DNA of 64,000 nucleotides from Donghicola eburneus (GTDB lineage: Bacteria; Pseudomonadota; Alphaproteobacteria; Rhodobacterales; Rhodobacteraceae). Below, piece after piece: positions 4,557 to 47,784 of the stretch (its first letter is position 1; the number at the start of each line of letters is the position of its first letter). A program made the translations under genes and the position numbers. The notes beneath the pieces are model-generated. The model did not search any database. It was not told the origin of the DNA and saw only the letters and a list, made by a program, of their open reading frames with translations. Where the stretch lies: assembly GCF_900115865.1 (NCBI RefSeq), contig NZ_FOXY01000013.1:1-64000 (forward strand), read 5' to 3'.

Positions 4557-5372
4557 TTAAGTGGCTGCGCGAAGGAGCGTGCGATACCGCTGTTGGCTGC
4601 CCTTCAGGTGCTGGCGCATTGCATCCCGCGCGCCCTGTTCGTCGCCGTTCAGAATGGCGGTGACAATGTTGTCGTGCTCTGTGTTGATCATGGCCCCATA
4701 AGCATGCGGGGAGCCTTCGGACGATGCCGTGTCCAAAGCGCGCCGCGGAATGCTGTTCGGGCCGACCACCTGCAAAAATTCACAGAAGCGTGGATTGTTT
4801 GTCGCCTCGGCGATGGCGAGGTGCAGATCGAAATCCGCATCGGCAGAGGGCGCGCCACTGGTGTTCGCGTCTGTCACTGTGCGCAGGGCGTCGATGATCC
4901 GCTCTTCTTGCGAGGGGCTGCGGCGCTGTGCGGCCAGACCGGCGGCCTCGACCTCGACTGCGGTGCGCAATTCCAACAGCTCGATCATGGACGACAGGCG
5001 CGCGCTGTCGATGTTGGTAAAGGGTGCAGGCACCTCGGCGGCGGGCTCTAGCACGTAGACGCCCGACCCTTGGCGCGGCTCGACCAAGCCATCGGCGCGT
5101 AGAGCGGCAATCGCCTCTCGCACAACCGTGCGGCTGACGGTGTGATCGCGGGTGAGTTGCGCTTCGCTAGGAAGTTTGTCGCCGGGGCAATATTTCCCAG
5201 ACAGGATCATGGCCCGAAGGTCATCTCGTAGGGTTGCCACCAGTGTTTTGCGGGCCGAGGTTGTTATTGTTTTGCTCCTGATAACTGCTGGTTGCGCGGT
5301 TCGGACGGGCTTCGCGGCCCAAGCGTTGCGCGGACTGGCAGGATTTGGTTCAAGGGTACAAGAGTCTGACAT
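4557..5372 (-). CDS. FadR-type GntR-family transcriptional regulator
   Basis: The N-terminal winged helix-turn-helix (GDKLPSEAQL, TVVREAIAALRADGLVEPRQG) is followed by a helical FCD ligand domain (DFDLHLAIAEATNNPRF; HDNIVTAILNGD; MRQHLKGS). It ends 3 bp from the SGNH gene and converges on it. Most likely it represses the sugar-acid operon in response to an intermediate. The start is uncertain. ATG 5372 has no Shine-Dalgarno sequence and touches a palindrome. An AGGAG at 5275-5279 sits 7 nt before an in-frame ATA at 5267, which would give a more typical 236-residue protein. In-frame extension upstream of 5372 is also possible. Confidence 0.87.
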   Translation of the reverse strand: MSDSCTLEPNPASPRNAWAAKPVRTAQPAVIRSKTITTSARKTLVATLRDDLRAMILSGKYCPGDKLPSEAQLTRDHTVSRTVVREAIAALRADGLVEPRQGSGVYVLEPAAEVPAPFTNIDSARLSSMIELLELRTAVEVEAAGLAAQRRSPSQEERIIDALRTVTDANTSGAPSADADFDLHLAIAEATNNPRFCEFLQVVGPNSIPRRALDTASSEGSPHAYGAMINTEHDNIVTAILNGDEQGARDAMRQHLKGSQQRYRTLLRAAT

Positions 5373-5386
5373 ACAATTGCAATTGT
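5373..5386. promoter_or_regulatory. 14-bp perfect palindrome, candidate operator
   Basis: ACAATTGCAATTGT is identical to its own reverse complement. It lies between the FadR-type regulator and the divergent DUF2254 gene and abuts the regulator's first ATG. FadR-subfamily proteins bind short palindromes and often regulate themselves, so an operator is plausible; this is inference. Confidence 0.4.
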
Positions 5387-5480
5387 GAGGCCCGACTTCA
5401 CCGCGAAAAGCGCATCGCGGGCGGGGAACCCAATGTCGGATGGCGCGTTCCACTTCGACGCAAAGCAAAGGAGTGCCGCC

Positions 5481-45361: not shown

Positions 45362-45394
45362 ACCCCGCCGAACAGCTTAATGACTGATGAACAG

Positions 45395-45421
45395 CCCCGC
45401 AGGTTCGCCTGCGGGGTTTTT
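45395..45421 (+). terminator. Rho-independent terminator of trpB
   Basis: CCCCGCAGG pairs with CCTGCGGGG around a TTCG tetraloop, followed by TTTTT. Confidence 0.92.
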
Positions 45422-45465: not shown

Positions 45466-45519
45466 CGTATGGCTGGCGTATGGTTTACGTCATGACGTTC
45501 CGGCTGGCTCTAGGCCTAG
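45466..45519. promoter_or_regulatory. Cluster of direct repeats and palindromes upstream of the PepSY locus
   Basis: CGTATGG occurs twice, 11 bp apart (45466-45472 and 45477-45483). Then come the perfect palindromes ACGTCATGACGT (45487-45498) and CTAGGCCTAG (45510-45519), whose centres are 22 bp apart, about two helical turns. The block lies 130-185 bp upstream of the first PepSY gene, in a 288-bp non-coding gap. It looks like a protein-binding region; which regulator binds is unknown, the locus-encoded LuxR-type protein being a candidate. Confidence 0.45.
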
Positions 45520-45649
45520 GGTTTAGGGGCGGTCTGCAGGCGCGCCATAACCCGCTCTATACCCCTTGGCGCATTTTCTTGGCGGCTGGCTCTGCCCAAG
45601 ACAGAGGCAGAGGCCAGAGACATTTCTGGCGCAGACGGGAGAGATCACG

Positions 45650-46303
45650 ATGATCAACAAACTGACAGCGCGCGTCGCGCTGGTGGGGGTGCTGTGTGTG
45701 GGCGGCGCGCAGGTATTTGCCCTGACCGTGGACGAGGCGATCAGCGCCACGACAGAGGCGGGCTACAGCGCGGTCGCGGTGCGGACCTCTCGGGATGGGG
45801 CGGTGACTTCGGTTCTGGCGACGGACGGGTCCAGCTACTACGAGATCGACTACGACACCGAGAGCGGCGCCGCGACCTCGACCACAGAAGTGACGCCGCG
45901 CGATGCCAGCTTTGAAACCTTGTCGACCGAGGACACATCAGCCGCGATTGCCGCCGCCGAGGAGTCGGGGCTGACCGTGGTTGCGGTGCGCGAGACCGAT
46001 AGCGGGGTCGAGGTTTTGGCCACAGATGGCAACGCGATGTACGAGGTCAGCTATGACAGCGACTCGGGCGCGGCGACCACGACCGAAGCCACGCGCGGCG
46101 GTCGCAAGGGGCATGGCCGCGATGATCGCGATGATGACGACGAGTCTGATGATGACAGCAGCTCGGACGCGGACGACAGTTCCGATGACAGCTCGGATGA
46201 CGACGAGGACGATGAGTCCGACGACGATCATGGGGGGCGCGACCGCGATCGGGACCGCGATCGTGACAGGGATCGTGAGGGGCGCGGCGGCGGAAACCAC
46301 TAA
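45650..46303 (+). CDS. Secreted protein with two PepSY-like repeats and an Asp/Ser-Arg/Asp tail
   Basis: A 217-residue protein with a signal peptide (about 1-24, ending QVFA). Two related repeats follow (26-82 and 95-148). Each has an Ala-rich helix with a conserved glycine, then VAVR..., VLATDG, Y-E-(I/V) and a SGAAT(S/T)TTE ending. The tail has an Asp/Ser-rich block (157-193) and an alternating Arg-Asp block (197-210). The repeats recall PepSY domains, which inhibit or bind in the periplasm. The acidic tail could bind Ca2+ or other cations (inference). ATG 45650 follows GGGAGAGATCACG. Confidence 0.75.
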   Translation: MINKLTARVALVGVLCVGGAQVFALTVDEAISATTEAGYSAVAVRTSRDGAVTSVLATDGSSYYEIDYDTESGAATSTTEVTPRDASFETLSTEDTSAAIAAAEESGLTVVAVRETDSGVEVLATDGNAMYEVSYDSDSGAATTTEATRGGRKGHGRDDRDDDDESDDDSSSDADDSSDDSSDDDEDDESDDDHGGRDRDRDRDRDRDREGRGGGNH

Positions 46304-46337
46304 GCCGCACGTACAACATTAGGAAAGCTGGCCCTGT

Positions 46338-46351
46338 GCATGGTACCATGC
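46338..46351. promoter_or_regulatory. 14-bp perfect palindrome before the second PepSY gene
   Basis: GCATGGTACCATGC equals its reverse complement and lies 33 bp before the ATG. Its half GCATGG differs by one transition from the GTATGG of the direct repeats at 45466-45483, which hints at a common binding factor. Confidence 0.4.
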
Positions 46352-46384
46352 GCGGGGCGTACGCTTAGGAACTGGGAAGACCGC

Positions 46385-46870
46385 ATGAAGAAAGTTTTGG
46401 CAGGATTGGTCTTTGGGGTCGGTTTGATCCCCGTCGCAGGCCATGCGGAAACGGTCAAAGAAGCGATCATTCAGGAACTGGCCGCTGAAGGATACACCAA
46501 GATCACGGTGTCGCGGACGTTGCTGGGGCGGCTGCGCTTTGTCGCGACAGGAGAGAACGGCTCTCGCGAAGTGGTGGTGCAGCCCAGCAATGGCGCGATT
46601 TTACGAGATCACTCTGACGACGATGATGATGATCGGCGCGGCGGTTCGGGCGAGCGGAACCGCGACTGGTCCGGTGGTTCTGATGACAGGGATGATCGGG
46701 ATAGTGACCGCGACGATGACGGTGATGATGATCGGGACACTGATCGCGATGACGACCGTGATGATGATCGCGACGACGACAAAGACGACAAGGATGATCG
46801 CGACGATGACCGCGGGGGCGGGCGCGATGACGACAAAGACGATCGGGACAACGATCGCGATGACGACTAG
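46385..46870 (+). CDS. Secreted single-PepSY-like protein with a long Asp/Arg repeat tail
   Basis: A 161-residue protein: signal peptide (1-21, AGHA cleavage), one PepSY-like unit (22-74: TVKEAIIQELAAEGYTKI, LRFVATG, SREVVVQPSNGAILRD), then from residue 77 to the end almost only Asp, Arg, Lys and Gly in RDDD/DDRD units. The head resembles the repeats of the preceding protein, so the two genes are probably paralogues. The start ATG 46385 has GGGAAGA 5 nt upstream. It ends 18 bp before the LuxR-type gene. Confidence 0.75.
   Translation: MKKVLAGLVFGVGLIPVAGHAETVKEAIIQELAAEGYTKITVSRTLLGRLRFVATGENGSREVVVQPSNGAILRDHSDDDDDDRRGGSGERNRDWSGGSDDRDDRDSDRDDDGDDDRDTDRDDDRDDDRDDDKDDKDDRDDDRGGGRDDDKDDRDNDRDDD
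46613..46867 (+). repeat. Imperfect GAY/CGY tandem repeat encoding the Asp/Arg tail
   Basis: About 255 bp of near-repetitive GAT/GAC and CGC/CGT codons. Units such as GATGACGACCG recur with synonymous changes, so the amino-acid pattern is kept while the DNA varies. A shorter stretch of the same kind is at 46238-46279. Confidence 0.8.
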
Positions 46871-46888
46871 GAGGCGCAAGGGAACGCA

Positions 46889-47428
46889 ATGAAAGAAGCA
46901 GAAAAGAAGATGCGCCTGCAGCGCCTTGGGATGGCCTCGGTCATCGGGCTGCAGGCGTTTTGTGCCTTGGTGTTTATCTGGGAAATTGTTGTGTCTGTGC
47001 TGGGGCTGCCGTTCAATCTGGTGCCGTGGAGCCTGTTTGAGCTGGTCGAGATCGGGGCGGCGGTGGGCCTGCTGCTGGGGATTATCGTGGGCGGTATGGT
47101 GCTGCGGAATACCGCGCGGCGGGCCGAGGCAGCCGAGACCCGGTTGCGGGCGGCCAGCCGTGAATTCATGGAACTGCTGGAAGAGCGGTTTCTGGAGTGG
47201 GGCCTGACACCGGCCGAGCGGGATGTGGCGCTGTTTGCCTTCAAGGGGCTGTCCACCGCCGAGATCGCGGGGATGCGCAACACGTCCGAAGGCACGGTCA
47301 AGGCGCAGACCGCTGCCATTTATCGCAAGGCCAGTGTGTCCGGCCGTGCGCAGTTGATGAGCGTGATTATCGAAGACCTGCTGATGGACGAAACCCAGCC
47401 CAGTCCGTTCCGTCAGGCGGCGGAATAA
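46889..47428 (+). CDS. Membrane-anchored LuxR-family (GerE-type HTH) protein
   Basis: A 179-residue protein. Two transmembrane helices (about 15-38 and 52-73) are followed by a helical linker (75-104) and a LuxR-type HTH (105-165): LTPAERDVALFAFKGLSTAEIAGMRNTSEGTVKAQTAAIYRKASVSGRAQL. There is no receiver or autoinducer domain. A short loop between the membrane helices is the only part that could face the periplasm. Same strand as the two PepSY-like genes with short gaps, so it may sense or regulate them (inference). GGAGG precedes the ATG by about 14 nt. Confidence 0.82.
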   Translation: MKEAEKKMRLQRLGMASVIGLQAFCALVFIWEIVVSVLGLPFNLVPWSLFELVEIGAAVGLLLGIIVGGMVLRNTARRAEAAETRLRAASREFMELLEERFLEWGLTPAERDVALFAFKGLSTAEIAGMRNTSEGTVKAQTAAIYRKASVSGRAQLMSVIIEDLLMDETQPSPFRQAAE

Positions 47429-47784
47429 GTCTCGAGCACTTCGAGCGGGATGATGTCGAGGGCGCGCTGGTGTGTGGCCTCGAGATCAACCTGAGGGGCG
47501 CAGCCTTCGTCATGGGCCTGTAGGAAGCGGCTGGCGCAGAGGCACCATTTGTCGCCGGGCATGAGGCCGGGGAAGCCGAACTCCAGCCGCGGGGTCGACA
47601 GGTCGTTCCCTACATATTTCGAGAATGCGAGGAATTCGGCTGTCATGACGGCGCAGACCGTGTGGCTGCCTTGGTCCTGCCAGCAGGTGTTGCACGACCC
47701 GTCGCGGAAAAAGCCGGTCATCGGGTCGGTGGAGCAGGGGCGCAAGGGGCCGCCGTTCACGTTGAGGGAAGGTTCCTTTTCCAT
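47413..47784 (-). CDS. DUF2237-family protein
   Basis: A 123-residue cysteine-rich protein matching the DUF2237 pattern: NGGPLRPCSTDPMTGFFRDGSCNTC, GSHTVCAVMTAEFLAFS, GFPGLMPGDKWCLCASRF and LEATHQRALDIIPL. Function is unknown; several conserved cysteines suggest metal or redox chemistry. Its last 16 bp overlap the LuxR-type gene, converging on it. Confidence 0.85.
   Translation of the reverse strand: MEKEPSLNVNGGPLRPCSTDPMTGFFRDGSCNTCWQDQGSHTVCAVMTAEFLAFSKYVGNDLSTPRLEFGFPGLMPGDKWCLCASRFLQAHDEGCAPQVDLEATHQRALDIIPLEVLETYSAA

Follow-up and report, generated by a model that had tools for sequence, protein, structure and literature searches.

A link between PepSY proteins and two-component sensors has lately been established, although the way in which such proteins signal is still poorly understood. 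The exported PepSY protein DbfQ contacts the kinase DbfS at its sensor domain, in a pathway that is activated by outer-membrane damage, and the DbfQRS-like modules described in excerpts of the same source include DbfQ-DbfR-DbfS of V. cholerae and PA2658/PA2659, with BqsS, of P. aeruginosa (PMC12714742). The screen reported there, as the excerpted text describes it, was confined to PepSY genes with a kinase or response regulator in their vicinity (PMC12714742), so that a version relying on a LuxR-type protein alone would escape it. Other PepSY proteins are known to bind metals. One of these, the subject of the UipA study, is said to bind uranium/iron. LanPepSY proteins bind lanthanides (PMC12482762, PMC11899968). 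Operons of the SHP/DHC/cytochrome b type encode a sensor kinase and a response regulator, and the periplasmic accessory protein Orf1 has been postulated to form part of one such sensor (PMC2909971). No earlier description of a PepSY protein paired with a membrane LuxR-type regulator was found in the open-licence papers searched, in agreement with the first-pass annotation of the DNA studied here, which knew no named system of such composition.

The locus in question occupies positions 45650-47428 of the window, by which we mean the whole 64 000-nucleotide stretch of Donghicola eburneus DNA that was analysed. Open reading frame listing and inspection of the sequence place three genes there, all on the + strand, which we call A, B and TM-LuxR (Table 1). 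We take gene A to start at the ATG at 45650, which gives a signal-like N-terminus; the open reading frame listing starts it at a TTG further upstream.

Table 1. Features of the A/B/TM-LuxR locus and its borders (window coordinates).
Feature	Position	Strand	Remarks
Intrinsic terminator-like hairpin following trpB	45393..45418	+	11 pairs, T-rich tail
Further GGTTTA half-site	45482..45487	.	read from sequence; not identical in L001
Degenerate candidate operator TAGGCC-TAG-GGTTTA	45511..45525	.	three-base spacer, poor left half; weak match to relatives' palindrome
Gene A, exported protein with two PepSY-like repeats and Asp-rich tail	45650..46303	+	217 aa
Gene A head repeat 1	45722..45880	+	limits approximate
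Gene A head repeat 2	45929..46078	+	limits approximate
Gene A tail	46097..46300	+	68 residues: 28 D, 4 E, 11 R, 1 K
Gene B, exported protein with single PepSY-like head and Asp/Arg tail	46385..46870	+	ATG 46385, 161 aa
Gene B head, modelled part	46445..46621	+
Gene B tail	46613..46867	+	85 residues: 47 D, 1 E, 16 R, 3 K
TM-LuxR, membrane LuxR-type regulator	46889..47428	+	179 aa
TM-LuxR two-TM region, residues 12-76	46922..47116	+	hydropathy
TM-LuxR GerE/LuxR HTH, residues 106-158	47204..47362	+	Pfam 30.5 bits, cut-off 23.5
Convergent DUF2237 gene closing the block	47413..47784	-	176.6 bits

The gaps between the genes are 81 nt (A to B) and 18 nt (B to TM-LuxR), and the DUF2237 gene overlaps the 3' end of TM-LuxR by 16 nt. 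The earlier description of three same-strand genes lying between a terminator and a convergent gene is therefore accurate, the borders being the trpB hairpin and the DUF2237 gene. The A-B gap holds a near-perfect palindrome, 88% complementary (46331-46358), in which the terminator scan found no T-run. In Donghicola mangrovi (locus L001) a third exported acidic gene, with no head match, lies between A and B (4959-5390).

The third gene encodes a membrane protein with a DNA-binding end. Its hydrophobic stretches fall in two helices, it has a short loop, and its LuxR/GerE helix-turn-helix scores above the family cut-off (Table 1). Five of the first 14 residues are positive and two negative; by the positive-inside rule, both ends of the protein are expected to be cytoplasmic. 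Neither Pfam nor NCBIfam detected a receiver domain, the NCBIfam response-regulator models matching the HTH end only, so that the two-TM, LuxR-type protein lacking a receiver proposed in the first-pass annotation is what we also find. Among 24 sequences, residues Q22, C25, W47, E51 and E54 are invariant. The fold model of the protein is weak (pLDDT 65.7).

The products of A and B both begin with hydrophobic stretches (residues 5-28 and 3-22, respectively) and end in tails with net charges of -20 and -29, in both of which Asp makes up a fraction of 0.87 of the acidic residues. Profiles iterated from the head of A or the head of B reach the same set of proteins and the two heads are hence homologous, which upholds the initial view of two exported proteins with related heads and acidic tails. 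That view had passed over the two repeats in the head of A, where B has one. Nine columns are invariant in 29 B-type heads, including T34, L36, G37, R38, R50, R63 and D64.

The assignment of these heads to the PepSY fold, also made at first pass, stands in part. In its favour, heads of relatives match PepSY_2 weakly, with hits in 12/29 for B (best E 0.001) and in 12/18 for A (best E 4.8e-7), and four divergent partners found with the same head profiles, all that were tested, score 50.0, 49.6, 61.9 and 37.7 bits against a cut-off of 24.3. Against it, the A and B heads of the window matched none of the Pfam PepSY models, and a search of the head profiles against PDB sequences returned no PepSY entry. 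Ribosomal protein S3, which topped the PDB-sequence list for repeat 2 of A, looks like a chance match and was set aside. A model of the B head, built from six rows comprising the window and L001, consists of a helix followed by four strands (pLDDT 93.3). With this model, Foldseek gave no match at E 0.001, and VIA-align gave resemblances to CD1622 (Z 6.3), YpmB (6.0), YpeB (5.2) and UipA (7ath, 5.2), no Z value reaching 8 and the highest-ranking row (7.7) being unrelated. The calcium-binding entry 3u1w appeared at Z 6.5, among unrelated rows of up to 7.7. The model supports a PepSY fold without proving it, and we therefore write 'PepSY-like'.

In order to judge whether the three genes belong together, we examined 248 genomes of the family. 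TM-LuxR was matched in 176 of them (E 1e-3), 147 of these at 1e-10 or better, and the B-head profile in 112. Every one of these 112 genomes carries TM-LuxR and falls within the 147, and B occurs in none of the 72 TM-LuxR-negative genomes (Fisher p 1e-24). Among the head matches listed, 143/150 lie upstream of a TM-LuxR gene, in the expected order and within 2.5 kb; among the regulator matches listed, 117/150 are paired with a head in the same way. Co-occurrence of the homologues had been named beforehand as one of the tests of the locus, and it holds.

Gene order was studied in 61 loci around the strongest regulator matches, with limited flanks; the top-ranked regulators of G000, G039 (the genome of L001, itself included), G216, G068 and G166 lie outside this set. 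At least two exported genes precede the regulator in 42 of the 61 loci, arranged as A-B in 33, acid-B in eight and A-acid-B in one. A head gene is present in 57; three of the four misses (L134, L139 and L151) match the B-head profile and the fourth, L149, is an EF-hand variant. The A/B/TM-LuxR block is a conserved module, and its arrangement, which recurs across the family, is more than chance. It could be argued that the genes stay together only through the synteny of the trpB-pth region, with no functional tie, since the whole region is conserved (trpB was recognised upstream in 51/61 loci, and the convergent DUF2237 gene in 43/61). We consider this highly improbable, however, because the pairing recurs with other neighbours elsewhere in genomes and the palindrome described below tracks the module. 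We reject chance or mere synteny on the basis of the 143/150 pairing among the heads listed, the 16/20 divergent loci (see below) and the 112/112 against 0/72 genomes.

The surroundings of 20 regulators with no head match at the first pass were examined, and in 16 a more divergent PepSY-like open reading frame was found upstream. This frame adjoins the regulator in seven loci (L062, L063, L065, L066, L075, L076 and L077) and precedes a cytochrome b561-like gene in nine (L067-L074 and L081), with confirmation by Pfam in L069, L073 and L081; upstream of the regulator in L064, L078, L079 and L080 no PepSY-like frame was found. The host genome itself has a second module of this kind on another contig (L103, G000:C15, about 169150-170500), made up of a PepSY_2 protein, a cytochrome b561 and a TM-LuxR. 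In a class-wide sample, 20/385 genomes matched the regulator at 1e-15, and 16 of these do not belong to the family; eight of the 16 have a PepSY-like frame within 1.5 kb upstream, and the other eight showed no PepSY neighbour within 1.5-kb flanks. A phylum-wide sample gave matches in 20/299 genomes, two of them outside the class. In one genome (G497) a head gene and TM-LuxR occur as a side-by-side convergent pair of copies (L083, 929-3044). When 66 hand-chosen and hand-labelled regulators were placed on a quick tree, gene contexts were seen to cluster (16 changes, compared with 40.2 in shuffles), and the trpB-locus set falls within a 22-row branch with a support of 97. Pairing with PepSY is a widely shared trait, and acidic tails mainly mark the trpB clade. 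The exported heads are constant across clades and are the likely periplasmic partners of the regulator.

These distributions bear on the view that the exported proteins are output only, with the regulator hairpin sensing membrane state, redox or a small molecule, the acidic proteins binding cations or coating a surface, and the heads having no part in sensing. Tails, not heads, make up the bulk of A and B, as such a view would have it, and at the trpB locus of G062 (L079/L149) the usual place of the PepSY-like genes is taken by a gene for an exported, acidic-tailed protein that has two EF-hand-like loops (EF-hand_6 score below cut-off), so that tail, regulator and an exact upstream palindrome are retained and the PepSY head is lost. 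Cytochrome neighbours with no PepSY match would likewise suit a redox or membrane signal: in L091, L092 and L094, relatives of TM-LuxR stand where a two-component pair might be expected, next to genes for diheme cytochrome c and DUF1924, and in L269 the regulator lies beside a cytochrome b561-like gene. However, pure output does not predict that the PepSY head should accompany the regulator in most clades and the acidic tails mainly in one, and we regard this explanation as unlikely.

A candidate operator emerged when 50 upstream regions were scanned for dyads, namely that of the window and those of 49 relatives drawn from the 51 trpB-recognised loci (L139 and L149, which have no head gene by our rule, were left out). 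The scan yielded TAAACCnnGGTTTA, and the palindrome TAAACYnnRGTTTA precedes the operon exactly in 31/49 relatives and with at most one mismatch in 37/49, compared with means of 0 and 0.04 in shuffled sequences; the best sites in control stretches of equal length within the regulator gene are at least four mismatches away. The remaining 12/49 have at least two mismatches and no site within one, and 6/49 have three, or four or more. The exact palindrome occurs in 96/248 genomes, that is 77/112 of those with B and 19/136 of the others. Related sites with up to two mismatches were found in 9/20 other-clade loci (2.2 kb upstream; 0.7 in shuffles), and related sites in 6/25 loci of the class set (0.75 in shuffles). 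TAAACYnnRGTTTA is thus probably the operator of TM-LuxR, as judged from conservation. In the window and in L001, which is from the same genus, the site is present solely in degenerate form; Table 1 gives the copy of the window, and the stretch of L001 aligned with it reads TATACC-GCT-GGTTTA. A perfect palindrome, ACGTCATGACGT, also lies upstream of gene A (45487-45498), and its core, CGTCATGACG, is found in 2/50 upstream regions, those of the window and L001. In the class relatives L085, L086 and L087 a GTAAGCnnnnGCTTA-type palindrome lies near the PepSY start, and the recognition helix is changed (TVRAQL for TVKAQT). The transcriptional link among the three genes that the first-pass annotation supposed stands as a prediction, drawn from their spacing and the conserved upstream palindrome.

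We tabulated 75 exact sites, a sample from the 96/248 genomes with sites. A listed regulator follows 36/75, additional copies of the locus (L211, L213 and L215) account for three, and the remaining 36, seven of which are in G136, mostly look unrelated. In a 20-genome scan, 7/8 of the zero-mismatch sites listed were at the A/B/TM-LuxR operon, and the palindrome looks like a mostly local operator. The host genome (G000:C25:247700; L207, L222) and its genus-mate (G039:C56:21424; L208, L223) each have an exact palindrome, with different spacers, 31-32 bp from the start of one and the same multicopper oxidase gene; this gene has strong relatives in only 3/198 genomes. Once mismatches are tolerated, the control pattern, which is the reversed one, often equals or outnumbers the palindrome (24 versus 5 in the host genome, 52 versus 4 in G110), and the far sites are therefore hints only.

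Some of these far sites would suit a role in metal handling. A and B would then bind a metal (Ca2+, Fe2+ or a lanthanide), as metal-binding PepSY proteins such as LanPepSY and, reportedly, UipA do, and the regulator would be a metal-responsive switch. UipA and the calcium-binding 3u1w are among the fold matches given above, and in three genomes exact palindromes precede an EF-hand gene (L204/L227, 120 bp) and RTX calcium-binding genes (L209/L224, 40 bp; L210/L226, about 33 bp). RTX genes are, however, common in the family Rhodobacteraceae, and the control pattern weakens these sites as it does the others. The locus itself yielded neither a metal site nor a metal gene, and in one study, as its excerpted text reports, lanpepsy did not raise the La binding of cells (PMC12482762/PMC11899968). 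We hold this explanation to be possible, if somewhat doubtful.

The reading that we prefer, and believe rather likely to be right, is that the locus is an autoregulated module in which a dimer of the membrane LuxR-type protein binds the palindrome and the PepSY-like proteins are periplasmic partners that feed back on it. It is built on the linkage of the genes, the homology of the heads, the topology features and the conserved palindrome. The regulator would sit as a two-helix hairpin in the inner membrane, its HTH facing the cytoplasm; its dimer, bound before the operon, would determine how much of the exported PepSY-like proteins is made, and we infer that it thereby regulates its own gene. 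In the periplasm, the heads may contact the hairpin as ligand or gatekeeper, and the Asp-rich tails may associate with cations or with basic surfaces. Transcription would then respond to how much A and B protein is present, to its load of cations or to where it is located. Cation binding is favoured by the Asp bias and by the EF-hand-like head swap in one locus; as far as can be judged from sequence, a cation or envelope signal is plausible. On this preferred reading one membrane protein would take over the roles that kinase and response regulator share in PepSY-kinase modules, such as that of DbfQ with DbfS. A bolder proposal, which we put forward tentatively and think more apt to fail than to hold, is that of a one-component membrane signalling class across Alphaproteobacteria, in which exported PepSY proteins would serve as the readout of a two-helix LuxR-type protein. 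Members of the trpB clade would have acquired disordered Asp-rich tails on the PepSY partner, turning it into a cation-loaded periplasmic ligand, and the cell would measure extracellular Ca2+ or a related metal by means of an autoregulated loop whose operator is close to being a single site. A pared-down system in which a PepSY partner faces a two-helix DNA-binding membrane protein with a candidate operator would make the step from PepSY protein to membrane testable with one reporter, and a testable role would follow for a gene block kept in 112/248 sampled genomes of the family.

Comparison with described systems places the locus near several of them and inside none. The regulator resembles the LIC13292 family (NF047608) in length and in its HTH and linker, which align over TM-LuxR residues 87-168, but it scores 62.2 bits against a cut-off of 200 and its membrane part falls outside the alignment. 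Cytochrome b and diheme cytochrome c genes lie beside a regulator in the SHP/DHC/cytochrome b operons, much as some relatives of TM-LuxR adjoin b561 or DHC/DUF1924 genes, although the regulators of those operons, in the excerpts of their description, are two-component. Like A and B with their PepSY-like heads, LanPepSY and UipA are exported, and they have PepSY domains, two of them in LanPepSY, which is the number of head repeats in gene A; metal binding is the property described for them in the excerpts of their sources, whereas the Asp-rich tails and the TM-LuxR partner are features of the present locus. The DbfQRS-like modules are alike in that a small exported PepSY protein, sometimes two, is encoded beside a membrane regulator, the corresponding proteins here being PepSY-like. 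They differ in having a histidine kinase and a response regulator where the present block contains A, B and TM-LuxR only, with a two-TM LuxR-type protein instead, and, as far as their excerpted description goes, in the long Asp-rich tails borne by the proteins here. Since kinase and response regulator are absent from the block, we do not file the locus as a DbfQRS member; it is better described as a kinase-free variant of PepSY-coupled membrane signalling, apparently new to the open-licence literature searched.
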